From: Mesorhizobium sp.
GTDB lineage: Bacteria; Pseudomonadota; Alphaproteobacteria; Rhizobiales; Rhizobiaceae
Assembly (NCBI RefSeq): GCF_017306545.1
Contig: NZ_JAFKID010000009.1
Location: forward strand, 62,001-126,000
Length of the DNA: 64,000 bases
Direction: 5' to 3'
Shown: piece after piece, positions 32,994 to 39,045 of the stretch
How positions within the stretch are numbered: the first letter of the stretch is position 1
Layout of the letters: each line of letters starts with the position of its first letter
Position numbers and translations under genes: made by a program
Notes under the pieces: model-generated
What the model saw: only the letters and a program-made list of their open reading frames with translations
The model's database searches: none
Told to the model about the DNA's origin: nothing

Positions 32994-33317
32994 GGTCTGC
33001 TCCGGCAACCGGCACTCATCGTCGAGAGCAAAGCGCGCCATTGGCAGGCCGATTGGATGTTTCGGCCGATCCTAGCCATGGCCGGTTAACAAACTGCTCC
33101 GGCAGCGGTCCACAAGCCGGCCGAACGGCCGCTGTCACGGACTGTGCCATAGGTGTTCGGCCGCGGACGACGAGAGCCTCGGACCATGACGTCGGGCACC
33201 GGCAAGCGGAAAAGCGCTCCTGCGCCATTCCCCATTGAAGCAGGCTCCTGCTTCCGCTAAGAAGCCGGAGCCGGCCGGCTCGCCGGGCGGCATCTGGCGG
33301 TTCATGCAACCGCCCGA

Positions 33318-33394
<77 letters not shown>

Positions 33395-33605
33395 ACAAAC
33401 CCAGCATTCTCAAGGCTTCCAGCGGTCTCGGTTTGTTTCTTCTGCAGCTTCATGCGGTTCGATGCCGGAACAGAGCAGGAATTTGAGGCTCTTTTCCGTA
33501 CAAATCTCGTACACCGTTTCCCTTTTTGTTCTGGAGGTCGCTTGCGATCGAAATAGGAACGTGCTTGCCTCCCGCCACTGGGGCGACCTTTGAATGGAGG
33601 CCGCA

Positions 33606-33830
33606 ATGGCAAGACGACAAAAGCCGAAAATGCTCTCGCAAACCGAGGTCGGTCAAATTCTGGCCGCCGCCGAGTGCCTGATGAACACCATCAACCGCGC
33701 GAGTGTCCGTACCGACACGGATCAATACAGAGCGATGCGAGACATCAACGATGCTGTTTGGGAGGGCGCAAAGATAATCGCCGGGTCGGACAGGCCGTGG
33801 CCCATTTATAGCTCCGTGGGGCCGTGCTGA
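33606..33830 (+). CDS. Hypothetical protein, first gene after the tRNA
   Basis: A 74-residue protein (MARRQKPKMLSQTEVGQILA...) of unknown function. GGAGG lies 5 nt before the ATG at 33606. It has a basic N-terminus, one or two helices and a polar C-terminus, and no cysteine motif. It precedes the first copy of the 87-bp promoter cassette. The 211 bp between the tRNA and this gene contain GTAC/GTAC inverted-repeat bases but no further gene. Confidence 0.55.
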   Translation: MARRQKPKMLSQTEVGQILAAAECLMNTINRASVRTDTDQYRAMRDINDAVWEGAKIIAGSDRPWPIYSSVGPC

Positions 33831-33873
33831 CGGGCGGCGCGGCTGTAAAAAACTTCACCGGCCTGCATTTTCT

Positions 33874-33960
33874 CTCTTGCAAATACGGATAAAATCCGTA
33901 TATTAAAACCATCAGCAACGGGGCAGCGCCCCACTTCCTCGGGAGACGATCCGATGACCA
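33874..33960 (+). repeat. 87-bp direct repeat, copy 1: promoter, operator, leader, RBS and start codon
   Basis: This stretch is identical to 35494-35580. It contains a -35 (TTGCAA, 33877-33882), a -10 (TATATT, 33899-33904) and, between them, a perfect palindrome ATACGGATAAAATCCGTAT (33883-33901). A short GGGGC/GCCCC hairpin in the leader (33920-33932), GGGAGA, and the ATG with the first codons of the downstream gene follow. The palindrome fills the promoter spacer and touches the -10, a classic site for steric repression. Confidence 0.92.
33877..33904 (+). promoter_or_regulatory. Promoter with palindromic operator, copy 1
   Basis: TTGCAA, 16 bp, TATATT: a near-consensus sigma-70 promoter with an 8-3-8 perfect inverted repeat (33883-33901) inside it. 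Expected to drive the gene at 33954 and those after it. The regulator is probably encoded in the prophage; the XRE-like gene at 35132 is the nearest candidate. Confidence 0.75.
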
Positions 33961-34346
33961 CCATCACCATCCAGCCCAAGTTCTACGAAGAGAGCAACCG
34001 CCCTGGCCGTCTCCAGATCGTCGCCCCCATGCCTGCTCTGACGGGCAGCGAGAAGCAGATCGCCTGGGCGACCGACATCCGCTCCGCAATGCAGATCGAA
34101 CTCGGCGAGAAGCTTGCCAAGATGATCGGCGTCAACTGGGGTTGCATCCTTCAGAGCGACATCGACTACATCGCCGAATGCCAGGCCAAGCTCGATGCGT
34201 TTTGCGCCGACCCGAAATATACCGCCTCCTTCGACAAGCTCGAGGCCGCGTTCTCGATCGCACAGGCTCATTTCTGGATCGAGAACCGCGACGACACGAT
34301 GGACCAGTTGGTCCGCAGCGCAGCCGCCTTCCTGGCGAGCGCCTGA
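33954..34346 (+). CDS. Hypothetical phage protein with an EKQIAWA motif
   Basis: A 130-residue soluble protein (MTTITIQPKFYEESNRPGR...). The segment TGSEKQIAWATDIRSAM recurs in many phage and plasmid proteins of unknown function. A helical, acidic C-terminal half follows (FDKLEAAFSIAQAHFWIENR). The ATG is inside promoter-cassette copy 1, with GGGAGA 7-8 nt upstream. The next gene begins 1 bp after its stop. A DNA- or nucleoprotein-related role is possible but not shown. Confidence 0.7.
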   Translation: MTTITIQPKFYEESNRPGRLQIVAPMPALTGSEKQIAWATDIRSAMQIELGEKLAKMIGVNWGCILQSDIDYIAECQAKLDAFCADPKYTASFDKLEAAFSIAQAHFWIENRDDTMDQLVRSAAAFLASA

Positions 34347-34347
34347 C

Positions 34348-35118
34348 ATGTCGGCCTTGGCTGAAATCAAGGTCGTGCCGCTCCCCATGGGGGCGGCATC
34401 CGGCGCGGCGGTGAGCTTTGCGAAGGATGCGGAGCGTAACGCCCGATTCAAGGCGCGCTTTCCGAAGGCTCGCTGGAGCAGCCAAACAGGCTCATGGCTG
34501 ATATCCGGCAAGACGGCAGCCGAGCGCGCCGCCCTCTGGGCCGAGGAAGAGGCGGCCCGCGGCGCCTTGGAAGCCAGGCTGCGCCTGCGAGCCGAGATTG
34601 ATCGCGCCTGGCACGAGGCCGACCCTGCGGTGCGCGCGGCGAAGGAAGAAAGACGCCGGCGGCGCGAGGCAGAAGACGCCGCAGCCGAGGAAAAGCGCCA
34701 GGTAGAACTCGACAGCCGCCGCTACAAGCCGGACGATGCCATGATCGAGAGGATCGTGGCCGCCCACATGAGGAGCGTCGAAGCCGGCAAAGGCCGCATC
34801 GGTCCGGCCTACACCGTCGGCCCGGAGCGCCTGCGCACCTTCCTGCGGCGAGGGATCGCGCCGGGCAGCCACACGTCCGCCGGGCCGGATAGAGAGCATT
34901 TCGGCGCCGGCCTGACCGTGACCTATCTTGGTGACGGCCGCATGCTGCTGGTTTCGAAGTATCCGCGCATCCGTGGCCGGAACGGCAGGTGGCAGGAGGT
35001 TGAGGTCAGCCGACGCGAAATGATCGCGTCGACCGAACTCATGGAAAAGCTGCTGTCGCACCTCGCATGGCGCGAATTCATGCCGCGCAGCGGTTTCGGC
35101 GTACCCAACTGCAGATGA
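34348..35118 (+). CDS. Hypothetical phage protein with a charged coiled-coil centre
   Basis: A 256-residue protein. The N-terminal ~60 residues (NARFKARFPKARWSSQTGSW) have an F-K...RW...W pattern reminiscent of HARP- or DUF5710-type small domains. A very charged helix follows (~80-130, rich in Arg, Glu, Ala), then a globular C-terminal half with YTVGPERLRTFLRRGI. Function is unknown. It follows the previous gene by 1 bp, so both come from promoter copy 1. Confidence 0.65.
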   Translation: MSALAEIKVVPLPMGAASGAAVSFAKDAERNARFKARFPKARWSSQTGSWLISGKTAAERAALWAEEEAARGALEARLRLRAEIDRAWHEADPAVRAAKEERRRRREAEDAAAEEKRQVELDSRRYKPDDAMIERIVAAHMRSVEAGKGRIGPAYTVGPERLRTFLRRGIAPGSHTSAGPDREHFGAGLTVTYLGDGRMLLVSKYPRIRGRNGRWQEVEVSRREMIASTELMEKLLSHLAWREFMPRSGFGVPNCR

Positions 35119-35131
35119 CAGGAGACAAGCG

Positions 35132-35422
35132 ATGAACGGGACCGAACTGCGCGAAGCGCGCGCTGCCCTTGGAAAACTGTGGAAGCTCGACCGACCCCTG
35201 CACCTGGCCGAGATCGGCAGGGCGCTGCGCCTGACCGGGCGCGATCCGGGCGAGACCGTGCTTAAATGGGAGCGTGGCAACGGCCCCAGCGGCCCCGCAT
35301 CTGTCGCCATCGAAATGATGCTGGCCGGCTCGCCACCGCCCGACGACATGGCCACGATCATTTCGCAGCGCGGCCGGCCGTCTGTGGTCACCGCGCTCGA
35401 AGGAGAGTCTAGCAGCGAGTGA
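35132..35422 (+). CDS. XRE-like helix-turn-helix regulator (candidate repressor)
   Basis: A 96-residue small protein. LHLAEIGRALRLTGRDPGETVLKWERG reads like a helix-turn-helix with the WERG ending of XRE regulators, and GPASVAIEMMLAGSPP follows as in related rhizobial phage regulators. ACAGGAGA lies before the ATG. It is the last gene of the first promoter unit and sits just upstream of promoter copy 2. That position, between two identical operators, makes it a good candidate to bind the palindrome. This is inference; no binding evidence can be seen. Confidence 0.65.
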   Translation: MNGTELREARAALGKLWKLDRPLHLAEIGRALRLTGRDPGETVLKWERGNGPSGPASVAIEMMLAGSPPPDDMATIISQRGRPSVVTALEGESSSE

Positions 35423-35493
35423 GGCTGTTCGTTCCGAACGCAATAGCCCAGCTCAAGCCGCGGCTGAAAAAACGTCATCCCCGCACATTTTCC

Positions 35494-35580
35494 CTCTTGC
35501 AAATACGGATAAAATCCGTATATTAAAACCATCAGCAACGGGGCAGCGCCCCACTTCCTCGGGAGACGATCCGATGACCA
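35494..35580 (+). repeat. 87-bp direct repeat, copy 2
   Basis: Identical over 87 bp to 33874-33960. It carries the same -35, palindrome (35503-35521), -10, leader hairpin, GGGAGA and ATG. The sequences diverge immediately after the shared ATGACCA, so the same control unit is attached to two unrelated coding regions. Similarity fades in the ~30 bp upstream. Confidence 0.92.
35497..35524 (+). promoter_or_regulatory. Promoter with palindromic operator, copy 2
   Basis: The same TTGCAA-16-TATATT promoter with the 8-3-8 palindrome in the spacer. It should drive the tightly packed genes 35574-37918 under the same control as copy 1. Confidence 0.75.
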
Positions 35581-35891
35581 TCACTTTCAAGACCGTCAAG
35601 GGTGCCACCGTCGAGTTGACCGCCAACTACGGCATCGAGGCGCGGGTTATCGGCCGAGACGATATGCGGTTTTCCGGCGTCGAGCTTGTCGAGGTCGCCG
35701 GGCACGGCCTCTGCGTCGCAATGGGGCCGATCAAGGCTGAAATCCGCAGCGAAGACCTGGATGCGGTCAAAGCCTTTTTCGCTGCCGAGGAAATGGCTCG
35801 CAAAGAGCGCGCCGCAGCCTACCTGGCCTCTGACGAGCACAAGGACGACGCCTTCCGCGCCAAGTTCTACCGTCGCAACAGCGACTATTGA
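35574..35891 (+). CDS. Hypothetical phage protein
   Basis: A 105-residue protein (MTITFKTVKGATVELTANYG...). The first half is predicted beta-rich, the second an Ala/Glu/Lys-rich helix (AFFAAEEMARKERAAAYLAS). No family recognised. Its ATG lies in promoter-cassette copy 2, and the following gene begins 12 bp after it. Small size and position suggest an early or accessory phage protein. Confidence 0.65.
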   Translation: MTITFKTVKGATVELTANYGIEARVIGRDDMRFSGVELVEVAGHGLCVAMGPIKAEIRSEDLDAVKAFFAAEEMARKERAAAYLASDEHKDDAFRAKFYRRNSDY

Positions 35892-35903
35892 TGGGAGGAT
35901 AAG

Positions 35904-36302
35904 ATGGACAACCGCCAGAAGATCGCCCTGCACAAAGCCCTCGAAACCCCGATCCGGCTTACCCGCCACGACGCGGCCCGTATCGCGCTCGCCCTCGAAT
36001 TGCTCGGCGAGCAGCATTGGCGCCTCGCGGCCGACCTTGAAAGCGCCATGGCACATACGCTGTGGGCCGCCGAAAACCTGGCACAGGTCGAGGCCGCAGC
36101 GCCCAAGGTTGCGGGCGATTTCCCCGGCTTCGACAGGCCGGTCGAAACCCCCGAAGTCATAGCCGCCCGCCAGCACGTTGATCGCTACGAAAAGGAGTGG
36201 TGGGCGGTCAAAGCCAGGATCGACGCCGTCTCGACCGAACTTGAGCAGTCGATCGGCCTCGCTGCCTATGCCGCCCACGACGAGGCTCGGGTGCCGTCAT
36301 GA
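35904..36302 (+). CDS. Hypothetical phage protein
   Basis: A 132-residue mostly helical protein (MDNRQKIALHKALETPIRLT...). No motif, signal peptide or membrane segment is seen. GGGAGG precedes the ATG. Its stop overlaps the next start (ATGA at 36299), indicating translational coupling in this operon. Confidence 0.65.
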   Translation: MDNRQKIALHKALETPIRLTRHDAARIALALELLGEQHWRLAADLESAMAHTLWAAENLAQVEAAAPKVAGDFPGFDRPVETPEVIAARQHVDRYEKEWWAVKARIDAVSTELEQSIGLAAYAAHDEARVPS

Positions 36303-37216
36303 GCCTCAATCCCATCATTACCGCGGTCGCCAGACAGGCGGCCGCGATGGACAGCCCGATTTCGAGCGTCTCGATCACGTCGCCGCTGGTCACCGGGACC
36401 GCCCTCCTGTCCATCAGTTGGGCGAAATTCGATGACGGCCAATGCGACATCGACGACATGCCGGCAGGTGTCGGGGTCCGCATGATGTGCCGCGCCCCCG
36501 ACAGCGTAGCCCCCTTGCCGCCCATGGTGGACGCCGAGGGCATGGCAATAGGCGCGGCCTGGGCGCACGGCGCCTGGGATATCAACCGCACGGTGATCCC
36601 GGCTGGCTATGATGGTCCCCTGCCGCCGAACGTTGCCTTGATCGCAGATGCGGTGCGCGAGCAAGGATATGTATCGTGGACCTGGCGGCCCATGCTGCGC
36701 GGCCCGGAAATCCGGGCCAAGCAGAAGCGGCCGGACCTGACGTTGGACAAATGGACGCTCGGCCGTGATGGCGCCCCGCCGGAAGTGCGCCGCCCTCCGA
36801 TCGTCGCCGGCCGCTCGGTCCTTATCAAGCTCGGAGACGACGGCACCCGCAAGCCCGCCGCCAGCAGGCGCAGGTCGTGGCTCGCGACCGACCGCCAGCG
36901 CGCCTATCTGCAAGTCCTGCTGCGCAAGGCCGGCGAGGACGAGACGCTGCCGGACGATCTCGACAAGCGCTCGGCATCGGCATGGATCGACAGGCTGACT
37001 GGCACAGCGATTCCTGCACCGGCTCCAAAGCCGAGAAAACGGTCCTTGCGCATCACCGTCAACCAGTGGCGGCTGATCGACCACTACCTGTCCCGGCTCG
37101 GCCGCGGTGGCCTGCCGATCAACACCATGAGGCTGATGACCCACGACAAGGCGCAAGCGATGCTCGCCGAGCTGCAGGCTCTCCTCGTGGCCAGATCAAA
37201 GAGGGACGCCGCATGA
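36299..37216 (+). CDS. Hypothetical phage protein with C-terminal helical repeats
   Basis: A 305-residue protein. The N-terminal part is beta-rich and unlike known families. The C-terminal part has LATDRQRAYLQVLLRKAGED followed by KRSASAWIDRLTG, a pattern (xxxQxxYLxxLxxxAG...A..WIDRL) found in many phage and plasmid proteins. A further basic segment, LRITVNQWRLIDHYL, follows. The pattern recalls the EKQIAWA segment of the gene at 33954. Function is unknown. Both ends overlap neighbours in ATGA. Confidence 0.65.
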   Translation: MSLNPIITAVARQAAAMDSPISSVSITSPLVTGTALLSISWAKFDDGQCDIDDMPAGVGVRMMCRAPDSVAPLPPMVDAEGMAIGAAWAHGAWDINRTVIPAGYDGPLPPNVALIADAVREQGYVSWTWRPMLRGPEIRAKQKRPDLTLDKWTLGRDGAPPEVRRPPIVAGRSVLIKLGDDGTRKPAASRRRSWLATDRQRAYLQVLLRKAGEDETLPDDLDKRSASAWIDRLTGTAIPAPAPKPRKRSLRITVNQWRLIDHYLSRLGRGGLPINTMRLMTHDKAQAMLAELQALLVARSKRDAA

Positions 37217-37671
37217 CGAAATTTATCTGGCACGTCGCTCTCGGGGCGGGCGATGCGACGGCAGAGCCGTGCGGCTACACCGACGCGCAGCTTGCGGCGT
37301 GGCGCGGCCACATCGACCATGCGATCGACGCCAACGCTGGCGCGCCGATCCCCGGCCAGCCGGGGTATGCGGTGTCAGCCCGCGTGATCGGCAGGTCGCT
37401 GCTGTGTAGCGTCGGCCGCGCAGACGATAAAACCGCCCTCGTCACATTTTGCGTCGTCGAGCATCAGCGACAGGCCCGCAAGGCATGGGAGGCCTTGCAC
37501 GAGGGCTACCCCCAGTTTGCCGCGACGCTGACCGCGATACCGCAGGTGCCCTACTGCGCGGTGCGGGCCGAGGCGGGCCTTGTCTACGATCAAGCAGCCG
37601 CCGCCTGGCTCGACGGCTACCAGCTCGCCGTCGCATGGGCGTGGCTGACCAGGAGGGATACCGATGCCTGA
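37213..37671 (+). CDS. Hypothetical phage protein
   Basis: A 152-residue protein (MTKFIWHVALGAGDATAEPC...) with no recognised family. It looks soluble and mixed alpha/beta, with several aromatic residues and three or four cysteines. It overlaps the preceding gene by 4 bp and the next by 8 bp, so it is a genuine member of the coupled operon. Confidence 0.65.
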   Translation: MTKFIWHVALGAGDATAEPCGYTDAQLAAWRGHIDHAIDANAGAPIPGQPGYAVSARVIGRSLLCSVGRADDKTALVTFCVVEHQRQARKAWEALHEGYPQFAATLTAIPQVPYCAVRAEAGLVYDQAAAAWLDGYQLAVAWAWLTRRDTDA

Positions 37672-37918
37672 GCCTCACGACTGGACCGCAGATCCGCGAC
37701 CGCTGTCCGACTGCCTCAAGGATTTCAACCGGATCATCAACGGCGGCCGGGTTTCGGGCGCCCGTATGGCCGGACAGACCGCACTCGGAATTCGCAGCGC
37801 CGACACCTACGCAGCCCTGCTTAAAAGCGGATACTCGACACCCTGGGAGGCGGTACTGCGCCTTGCCATGGTCGAGGCCGAGAGACGGGGCGGTGGACAA
37901 GCAGCCGGAAAACCTTGA
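37664..37918 (+). CDS. Small hypothetical phage protein, possibly DNA-binding
   Basis: An 84-residue protein (MPEPHDWTADPRPLSDCLKD...). The segment GARMAGQTALGIRSADTYAALL followed by WEAVLRLAMVEAERR could form helices like a small helix-turn-helix, but the match is weak. It is the last gene of the coupled group from 35574. About 90 bp with no gene separate it from 38007. Confidence 0.55.
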   Translation: MPEPHDWTADPRPLSDCLKDFNRIINGGRVSGARMAGQTALGIRSADTYAALLKSGYSTPWEAVLRLAMVEAERRGGGQAAGKP

Positions 37919-38006
37919 CGCCTCGCGCGCAGCACTCTCTACTGCCACTGTCGCCTCCGGGCGTGGGTCCTAAGATCATCAGCAGCACATCGCAGGGTGG
38001 GGACCC

Positions 38007-38783
38007 ATGCCGTACCAATCGCGCGAGGAGCGACAATCCTCTCCGCATCCGGGCCTGCTTGCCAAACCTCCGGTCGCGCCGGCACCTCCATCCCGCACGG
38101 CTTATGCAAACCGCCCTCGCCTGCTGGCCGGCCCCTACGTCGCGCCGACGGTCCAATGCGGCGATGTCCTCGCCGACGAGATCGACGGCGACGTCGAGGT
38201 CGGCTCCTACTCGGCAGGCCGCATTGCGTGGCCCTGCCGTCGCAAGCCCGGCCGGCGAAGCCTGATCCTCACCGGCGACCTGGTGCTGGCGGTGCGGACC
38301 GAAAGCAGCGAGGCGATCCAGTATTGGTTCGGGGTCGGCGCCGTCACGGCCTGGAAATGGCGTTCAGCGCTCGGCGTGGACCGGCAAAACAACGCCGGCA
38401 CGCAAAAGCTCTACCGCGACCTCAAGCCGGCCAAGCTCACGCCGGACCGCGCCGCCAAGGGCCGGATCGCCGCGGCGTCGCCCGCCGCCATCGAGCGCAT
38501 GGCGGCGGCAAAGCGAGGCGTCCCCGCGCATCCCCGCACAAGGGCGGCGCTGATCGAGGCGGCGAAAGCGCCCAAGCCGGACGGCTGGGGCGAAAGAGCG
38601 AATCGGTGGATGCTGGCCGGCAAGGCGGCGACCCCTGAAACGCAAAAAGCCCGCCCCGGCGAGCCGGAGCGGGCGGGCAAGTGCAGATGGTGCGCAGCAG
38701 TCAGGGAGGCGGCCGGCCTGTCATCCATGTGTAGACGCCGACCAGCCATCCGGCGGCGCCGACCACACCGATCCCGATCCTGA
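38007..38783 (+). CDS. HTH-like phage protein with NUMOD3-like repeats
   Basis: A 258-residue protein. After a proline-rich start it has GDVLADEIDGDVEVGSYSAG, then IAWPCRRKPGRRSLILTGDL and YWFGVGAVTAWKWRSALGV, which looks like a helix-turn-helix. The later IERMAAAKRGVPAHPRTRAALIEAA resembles the repeats in NUMOD3-type modules. A similar layout is recalled from proteins of unknown function in planctomycetes and some phages. The last ~45 residues run through the terminator of the opposite operon and overlap the DUF1515 gene by 83 bp. Confidence 0.6.
   Translation: MPYQSREERQSSPHPGLLAKPPVAPAPPSRTAYANRPRLLAGPYVAPTVQCGDVLADEIDGDVEVGSYSAGRIAWPCRRKPGRRSLILTGDLVLAVRTESSEAIQYWFGVGAVTAWKWRSALGVDRQNNAGTQKLYRDLKPAKLTPDRAAKGRIAAASPAAIERMAAAKRGVPAHPRTRAALIEAAKAPKPDGWGERANRWMLAGKAATPETQKARPGEPERAGKCRWCAAVREAAGLSSMCRRRPAIRRRRPHRSRS
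38643..38678 (-). terminator. Rho-independent terminator of the phage late operon
   Basis: GC-rich hairpin (outer 7-bp stem 38649-38655 with 38672-38678; inner stem CCGG/CCGG around CGAG), followed on the minus strand by TTTTT (complement of 38644-38648). It lies 22 bp beyond the last late gene (stop at 38701), inside the coding region of the convergent gene 38007-38783. Confidence 0.85.
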
Positions 38784-39045
38784 TGAGCCATCGGCCGAGC
38801 GTGCCGGCGCCCTCTGCCTTGGTGATGAGCGTCGTCGTCTGGACGGTTACCTGCTCCATCCCGTCGAGCTTTGTCTTCGTCGAGGCAACGTCGGCCTCCA
38901 GATGCGTGGTCCGCATCACCAGGTCGTCGAGCCGCCGGTGCACCCCCGCCCGGCTCGTCTCGGCCTTTTCCATGCGATCCTCGATGCCCTCGATCTTGCC
39001 GAGGATGATGCCGAGGGTCCGCTCGACGCTTGCATTGGTTGCCAT
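38701..39045 (-). CDS. DUF1515-like membrane-anchored coiled-coil protein
   Basis: A 114-residue protein with a long charged coiled coil (residues ~10-75: EGIEDRMEKAETSRAGVHRR) and one C-terminal membrane helix (IRIGIGVVGAAGWLVGVY). The layout matches DUF1515/XhlA-like phage proteins that sit in lysis cassettes. It may be a holin accessory or holin-like protein; this is not proven. It is the last gene of the late operon, directly after the 25-residue peptide gene. Confidence 0.7.
   Translation of the reverse strand: MATNASVERTLGIILGKIEGIEDRMEKAETSRAGVHRRLDDLVMRTTHLEADVASTKTKLDGMEQVTVQTTTLITKAEGAGTLGRWLIRIGIGVVGAAGWLVGVYTWMTGRPPP

Follow-up and report, generated by a model that had tools for sequence, protein, structure and literature searches.

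A duplicated start module in a Mesorhizobium prophage is one case of a widespread, mosaic phage module with a linked family of repressor-like proteins

In a 64,000-nucleotide stretch of a Mesorhizobium sp. genome (contig NZ_JAFKID010000009.1, positions 62,001 to 126,000; the window), an 87-bp unit consisting of a predicted promoter, a palindrome and a ribosome-binding site stands ahead of two sets of small genes, here called operon 1 (33954-35422) and operon 2 (35574-37918; five open reading frames, ORFs), operons being defined by position. Sequence comparison indicates that this unit is one case of a phage start module, composed of a promoter-like sequence, a spacer palindrome, a leader hairpin (GGGGC-N3-GCCCC) and a Shine-Dalgarno (SD) sequence with its ATG. 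The module appears to be widespread and mosaic, and it has a linked family of repressor-like helix-turn-helix (HTH) proteins, to which the gene at 35132 belongs. The core idea of a first-pass annotation of the window, that a phage copied a control module and thereby put a second operon under the same switch, holds inside this broader module. We consider it probable that the pair represents an early switch of Aca-like type, controlled by its own product, and that its duplication placed two operons under a single repressor.

The two copies, at 33874-33960 and 35494-35580, were compared base by base and proved identical at all 87 positions, with a mismatch at either edge; a weaker 92% match spans 33847-33963. 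They form the sole exact direct repeat of at least 40 bp within the 64-kb window, in which no exact inverted repeat of at least 40 bp was found. Each copy contains, in order, TTGCAA, a 16-nt spacer, TATATT, a leader with GGGGC-AGC-GCCCC, GGGAGAC and the ATG (at 33954 in copy 1). The perfect palindrome that the first-pass annotation had seen filling the spacer has exact arms in both copies, the right arm entering the -10 hexamer by 3 nt. The elements of the two copies are the following.

33874..33960, + strand: start module copy 1, 87 bp, from sequence comparison
33877..33882, + strand: predicted -35 TTGCAA, copy 1, consensus only
33883..33901, + strand: putative operator palindrome ATACGGAT-AAA-ATCCGTAT, copy 1, fits TAC-N11-GTA
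33899..33904, + strand: predicted -10 TATATT, copy 1, consensus only
33920..33932, + strand: leader hairpin GGGGC-AGC-GCCCC, copy 1
33941..33945, + strand: SD GGGAG (inside GGGAGAC), copy 1
35494..35580, + strand: start module copy 2, 87 bp, from sequence comparison
35497..35502, + strand: predicted -35 TTGCAA, copy 2, consensus only
35503..35521, + strand: putative operator palindrome, copy 2, same letters as copy 1
35519..35524, + strand: predicted -10 TATATT, copy 2, consensus only
35540..35552, + strand: leader hairpin, copy 2
35561..35565, + strand: SD GGGAG, copy 2

Further palindrome sites were absent from the window at up to 3 mismatches (0 in 100 shuffles). In the whole genome, the pattern occurs exactly at 2 sites, both of them these promoters, and once with 2 mismatches, on contig C46.

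An assembly artefact, which the first-pass annotation had named among the possible refutations of its claim, is unlikely, because a third, diverged copy with its own flanks lies on contig C21 of the same genome and because an identical pair with the same boundaries is present in G576, a genome of another genus. These two genomes stood out among 394 genomes of the family; 44 others gave short pieces at E 0.001-0.1, which were inspected in part and taken as chance. Contig C21, which judged by its ORFs looks like a second prophage, carries module 1 with the same three genes (protein identity 79%, 83% and 85%) and a leader 96% alike over 78 bases, without operon 2 behind these genes. Its HTH gene encodes 204 aa (L142:2848-3462), a 35132-like part plus about 110 further residues, and a second relative of 35132 lies on C21 distant from the module (G000:C21:79907-80086, L193; 38%, E 1.7e-4). 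In G576, two copies are mutually identical over 86 bp, from the -35 through ATGACCGA, ahead of two unrelated genes and with an HTH gene behind the modules; they are 83% like the copies in the window. Since the boundaries are the same but the letters differ, the copies have presumably been re-copied or converted within the phage, or duplicated twice. The earlier suggestion of copying or homogenisation thus gains support; the copy may be recent, or old and maintained by gene conversion. The first genes of operon 2 and of the G576 pair showed no significant homology (E 0.78), and we therefore do not claim the pair as ancestral. In a further genome, G118, the gene order is the same, with a different palindrome and a different hairpin sequence (GGGCA-ATAG-TGCCC). 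Searching 397 genomes of the order with the leader yielded the own genome (3 sites), G884 (module-like, with another operator) and G847 (chance by context), and among 385 genomes of the class the five matches beyond the own genome were all judged chance by context.

The palindrome alone, used as a search key, returned at least 116 stretches from genome contigs (at least 60 of them a Cloacimonadota-type repeat) and 18 from viral contigs. It was dropped in favour of the leader because the matches that were fetched had no module context in their flanks. The repeat in question, a nested palindromic element around ATACGGAT-N3-ATCCGTAT found mostly in Candidatus Cloacimonadota (e.g. L022) in many copies per assembly, is unrelated to the module.

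An exact scan for the leader sequence CAACGGGGCAGCGCCCC recovered 62 viral stretches, 61 of them placing it directly ahead of an SD and ATG (the exception being L263), and 56 of the sites were preceded by a promoter-like sequence matching a loose -35/-10 pattern. With looser scans included, at least 100 distinct units were collected, a count that includes the redundancy of related contigs; the 100 units stand ahead of 71 downstream protein families, grouped by single linkage at blastp 1e-4, and nearly all of the units come from IMG/VR contigs. Some are intergenic, lying after a stop codon with no promoter seen. The control module described in the first-pass annotation is, as that annotation had not seen, no isolated case: it recurs across phages, the hairpin being its most constant part and the palindrome being phage-specific. 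Palindromes vary among contig groups and the hairpin hardly varies, although part of the stem's constancy comes from the search itself, since most scans accept only query-like units. A stem-free scan, of which at least 92 distinct matches were read, gave 15 in module context with five pairs, all GGGGC/GCCCC; among the matches listed, L393 carries GGGGCTTCGGCCC and the remainder looked like chance. An inverted repeat score of at least 6 was reached in 15 of 35 non-redundant upstream stretches, as against 6.4% of shuffles, the repeats not all lying within the spacer. In some contigs (L278, L271) one palindrome is common to several promoters and therefore behaves like a regulon mark. Elsewhere, modules with related operators stand back to back on opposite strands (L253:8350-8470 and L251:2840-2970); these pairs are likely to be divergent promoters under one repressor.

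The 87-mer had no match among phage and plasmid records, and the leader matched there only as 18-19-nt pieces in four phages and one plasmid (E 3-4), taken as chance. An Rfam scan of 33000-38800 brought the tRNA alone to the gathering score, with nothing credible at the modules, and no description of this hairpin module was met in the searches made of Rfam and of open-access papers.

The first-pass annotation had pointed to the gene at 35132 as the likely regulator, a suggestion strengthened by the co-occurrence of its family with modules and by the association between HTH clade and operator. Searching viral contigs with four HTH sequences (35132, L194 and those of C21 and G576) identified 30 loci, and GGGGC modules were present in 22 of them within the stretch examined; the leader scans had independently listed 13 of these 30 contigs. 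Conversely, an HTH protein of this family, scoring at least 45 bits, was encoded at 26 of 57 module loci and at none of 99 controls (27 and 2, respectively, at 25 bits), the controls being contigs of chance matches from the stem-free scan, unmatched for host or GC content. The profile was trained partly on the same contigs, and 16 of the 26 proteins are less than 90% identical to any profile row. The distance from a module hairpin to the start of the HTH gene behind it was 0.2-1.3 kb wherever it was checked, in the window, in C21, in G576 and at ten viral loci. The family divides into clades, of which clade A has about 8 extra residues ahead of the HTH. Pfam HTH_3 was above cut-off in five of six clade-B relatives scanned, and 35132 aligns to one such protein (43%, 2e-10), so that, via its relatives, 35132 qualifies as a predicted HTH DNA-binding protein. 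Two sequenced phages whose hosts are named, Paracoccus phage vB_PkoS_Pkon1 and Pseudanabaena phage Pan3, encode a relative of the regulator behind a leader hairpin; in Pkon1, the p72-p71 pair follows TAGCGCCATTGGCGCTA and a leader hairpin. Vibrio phage IKEMa6-1, a weaker match, showed no clear module.

HTH clade goes with palindrome type, with exceptions. In a first set, TAC-N11-GTA was found upstream in all eight clade-A phages (G576 counted as A) and in none of seven others (G118 among them). In a larger set, it occurred in 11 of the 19 phages of clade A and in none of the 10 of clade B (background 45 of 20,000 windows). The Fisher value of 0.0035 is too favourable, because the operator classes were defined on these same data and the phages share ancestry. 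The looser form TRC-N11-GYA was present in 13 of the 19 in clade A and again in none of the 10 in clade B, and a B-type operator in 7 of 10 clade-B phages and 1 of 19 clade-A phages. We regard it as unlikely that the palindrome is instead the operator of another regulator, such as a CI-like prophage repressor or a host protein, with 35132 a mere neighbour carried along with the module: clade and operator type agree in most phages, the exact sites of the genome are confined to these two promoters, and the HTH gene keeps its place close behind the module. Such a reading would nonetheless draw on the abundance of small HTH genes in phages, on the fact that binding by 35132 is a prediction, and on the early region of the prophage itself, at about 70-74 kb in coordinates continued beyond the window, which lies outside the annotation and where another repressor is possible.

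We favour autorepression through 35132, the last gene of operon 1. The 87-bp unit would be a portable start module: a sigma70-type promoter, its spacer occupied by the site to which an Aca-like HTH repressor encoded by the phage would bind, and behind this promoter a constant 5' RNA hairpin, the SD and the ATG. Upon entry or induction, the free promoters would fire and both small-gene operons would be made. As the product of 35132 built up, its dimer would cover the TAC-N11-GTA operator in both copies and shut both operons, such that a single repressor would time one early burst of both gene sets. Through copy 2, the five genes at 35574-37918, which do not follow the module on C21, would come under this shared control, and recent copying or gene conversion would hold the copies within one phage identical.

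Besides the lenient Fisher values, several observations weigh against this switch. Among the 19 clade-A phages, 8 lack TAC-N11-GTA and 6 lack even the looser form, several of the clade carrying other palindromes; G118, placed in clade A in the larger set, has a B-type site, and 3 of 10 clade-B phages have no B-type site. Eight of the 30 HTH loci have no GGGGC module; in at least three of them (L410, L415 and L423) the contig breaks off close to the gene, while L409, L414, L418, L419 and L437 are not so explained, L418 having a spacer palindrome without the hairpin. On C21, the -35 is altered and the palindrome imperfect, though the leader is kept. Neither Pfam nor NCBIfam matched the 35132 protein itself, the two further clade-A proteins that were scanned likewise fell into no family, and a two-sequence AlphaFold model of 35132 was poor (predicted local distance difference test score, pLDDT, 54) and gave no fold match. 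The link to Aca proteins is unspecific, as the HTH profile scores a designed binder and MBF about equal to Aca3, and Acr function is known for none of the operon genes.

The closest parallel is nevertheless with Aca systems. Aca10 of the acrIC7-acrIC6-aca10 operon binds ATACGCTCATTGAGCGTAT, a 19-bp minimal site inside TTGCAA-N16-TATTCT (PMC9410881). The promoter in the window is TTGCAA-N16-TATATT with ATACGGATAAAATCCGTAT, and the Aca10 site likewise fits TAC-N11-GTA. Aca10, and also Aca2 and Aca3, share with the window a small HTH protein as the last gene of a small-gene operon and a palindrome overlapping the -35 and -10. By position, 35132 is similarly encoded in its own operon behind a promoter inverted repeat, as the third gene behind module 1, and the HTH gene has a similar position in C21, G576 and several viral loci. 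The window differs from Aca systems in its constant start hairpin, in the several promoters of some phages, in having no known acr gene, in the extra residues ahead of the HTH in clade A and in its weak sequence similarity. The HTH family profile scored Aca3 at 7e-4 and Aca2 at 0.46, while 7xi5, a code that the Aca10 paper mentions, scored 1.2, and Aca2_YdiL was met at 0.01-0.09, below cut-off, in four of six clade-B and neither of two clade-A proteins. Because the profile scores Aca2 and 7xi5 weakly and other HTH proteins alike, 35132 may have an Aca-like mode of action without being established as an Aca.

The leader hairpin is likely to act as RNA, and control or protection of translation starts would be its most likely function. 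It is present in the minimum-energy fold of 98 of the 100 collected units and ends 10-26 nt upstream of the ATG. In the fold model, the SD is mostly free in 28 of 100 units, and a largely paired SD would suit translation control without proving it. When gene starts were scanned without requiring GGGGC, GGGGA/TCCCC was met at 4 starts in 3 contigs, alongside 78 GGGGC starts and 32 assorted GC-rich stems, while neither GGGGC nor GGGGA stems occurred at gene starts in 101 unmatched control loci (818 kb). In 39 distinct leaders, all 195 of 195 cells were paired and 3 had changed on both sides, with 0 of 500 shuffles as high on either measure. On the other hand, only one of the five stem pairs varies, and the structure slid by -3 columns scores a covariation of 0.109 versus 0.058 for the true one, though only 54% of its cells pair; the pair counts therefore lend thin support. 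Single stem variants were CGGGC/GCCCG (Pan3), the G118 stem with its 4-nt loop, GGGC/GCCC with a 6-nt loop (Pkon1), GGGCC/GGCCC (L437) and GGGGCTTCGGCCC (L393), any one of which may be chance, because the 32 other GC-rich stems were met at starts in the same scan. A terminator was rejected, as there is no T-run and the SD lies downstream.

The nearly invariant arms and free centre of GGGGC-N3-GCCCC are also what a dimer site would display, and the confinement of change to one of five pairs would likewise speak for a second DNA operator, a 13-bp palindrome, rather than an RNA element. We think such an operator quite unlikely: several copies are intergenic and directly ahead of an SD with no promoter seen, paired stem changes recur at the same place (the GGGGA/TCCCC starts and the single cases of Pan3, G118 and L393), and the variable loop length would hardly be allowed by a fixed dimer site.

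One promoter family was found at 11 loci ahead of 9 downstream protein families and another at 8 loci ahead of 5, and one gene family lies behind both, the mosaic seam being the start codon. That the unit is mainly a recombination seam, a short shared gene-start sequence by which phages swap small genes through homologous recombination with regulation secondary, would account for these junctions, but it is very unlikely, as a mere seam needs neither a palindrome that tracks the HTH clade nor a hairpin that keeps pairing when its letters change.

For a hairpin with an RNA role beside an HTH repressor, there may be a precedent. Aca2 reportedly (a 2024 Nature paper) has an RNA site at the acr start and blocks ribosomes there; in the module described here, by comparison, it is the DNA operator that varies and the hairpin that stays constant. 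The existence of an Aca2-RNA complex structure indicates that an Aca protein can bind RNA (PMC11239489). The nearest start-associated elements that we found are SAS and ESAS of cluster K mycobacteriophages, where a constant element lies at the start codons of many non-structural genes and where a subset of these is preceded by inverted repeats, which vary from subcluster to subcluster and include putative promoters, according to the accessible portions of the reports (PMC3203893, PMC11373665). SAS is the asymmetric 13-bp GGGATAGGAGCCC, 3-7 bp from the ATG, and its authors see little support for RNA pairing in the extended repeats; the module instead has GGGGC-N3-GCCCC, ending further from the ATG, and those portions mention no linked HTH family. 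In archaeal viruses, many early genes, anti-defence genes among them, are preceded by a common regulatory sequence that includes a strong promoter; unlike here, the part of the report available mentions no start hairpin or spacer operator (PMC11065993). On this background, we tentatively raise a possible, if doubtful, extension of the switch: the start-codon hairpin, an RNA not in Rfam, would tag the early regulon of a large set of phages, most of which come from metagenomes, and HTH proteins of the linked Aca-like family would read the phage-specific promoter palindrome through the recognition helix and the constant RNA hairpin through the conserved SGPASVAIE region, shutting transcription and translation together.

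As the first-pass annotation had it, two gene sets lie behind one identical predicted promoter-operator-RBS (ribosome-binding site) unit in a phage setting. A 47-bp repeat of the 3' end of a tRNA-Arg gene bounds a prophage of about 45.3 kb (33348 to 78651, window-continued coordinates), at one end of which the 87-bp pair is placed; an ORF near the far end looks like an integrase gene. The features around the modules are listed here.

33348..33394, + strand: tRNA-Arg (CCG) 3' end, attachment core; second 47-bp copy at 78605-78651 in window-continued coordinates, beyond the window
33594..33830, + strand: 78-aa ORF between the attachment core and module 1; counterpart on contig C21 of the same genome
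33954..34346, + strand: operon 1 gene 1, 130 aa, EKQIAWA-type phage protein
34348..35118, + strand: operon 1 gene 2, 256 aa
35132..35422, + strand: operon 1 gene 3, 96 aa, HTH family, proposed repressor of both copies
35574..35891, + strand: operon 2 gene 1, 105 aa
35904..36302, + strand: operon 2 gene 2, 132 aa
36299..37216, + strand: operon 2 gene 3, 305 aa, DUF3072 match
37213..37671, + strand: operon 2 gene 4, 152 aa
37664..37918, + strand: operon 2 gene 5, 84 aa

Called genes past operon 2 are oriented oppositely. Family searches of the operon genes matched DUF3072 (the 305-aa gene) plus weak families and nothing else, and PADLOC had no match among them; any anti-defence role of these genes would be a prediction from their setting. 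By eye, the EKQIAWA-type protein was also seen behind other promoter-like sequences with palindromes in several further phages (L144-L156, L197), and because of these occurrences the gene may be one that early phage units commonly carry. Three ORFs of 300, 124 and 386 aa lie close to the distal prophage end, at 74496-77089 in window-continued coordinates (L143, beyond the window). By resemblance, they may be the target, accessory protein and reverse transcriptase of a diversity-generating retroelement.

If the proposed switch is true, the 25-nt leader and a small repressor family would together give a signature by which the early regulon of these phages, described chiefly from metagenomes, could be searched for. 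The 71 families behind the 100 collected units are mostly small unnamed proteins, and if the dual reading of DNA and RNA is true, they would supply candidates for genes of host takeover and anti-defence. Natural repressor-operator pairs seem to have co-changed in specificity with the start hairpin unchanged, and such pairs make RNA reading by these repressors directly testable. The module may thus serve as a handle on how these viruses take over cells.

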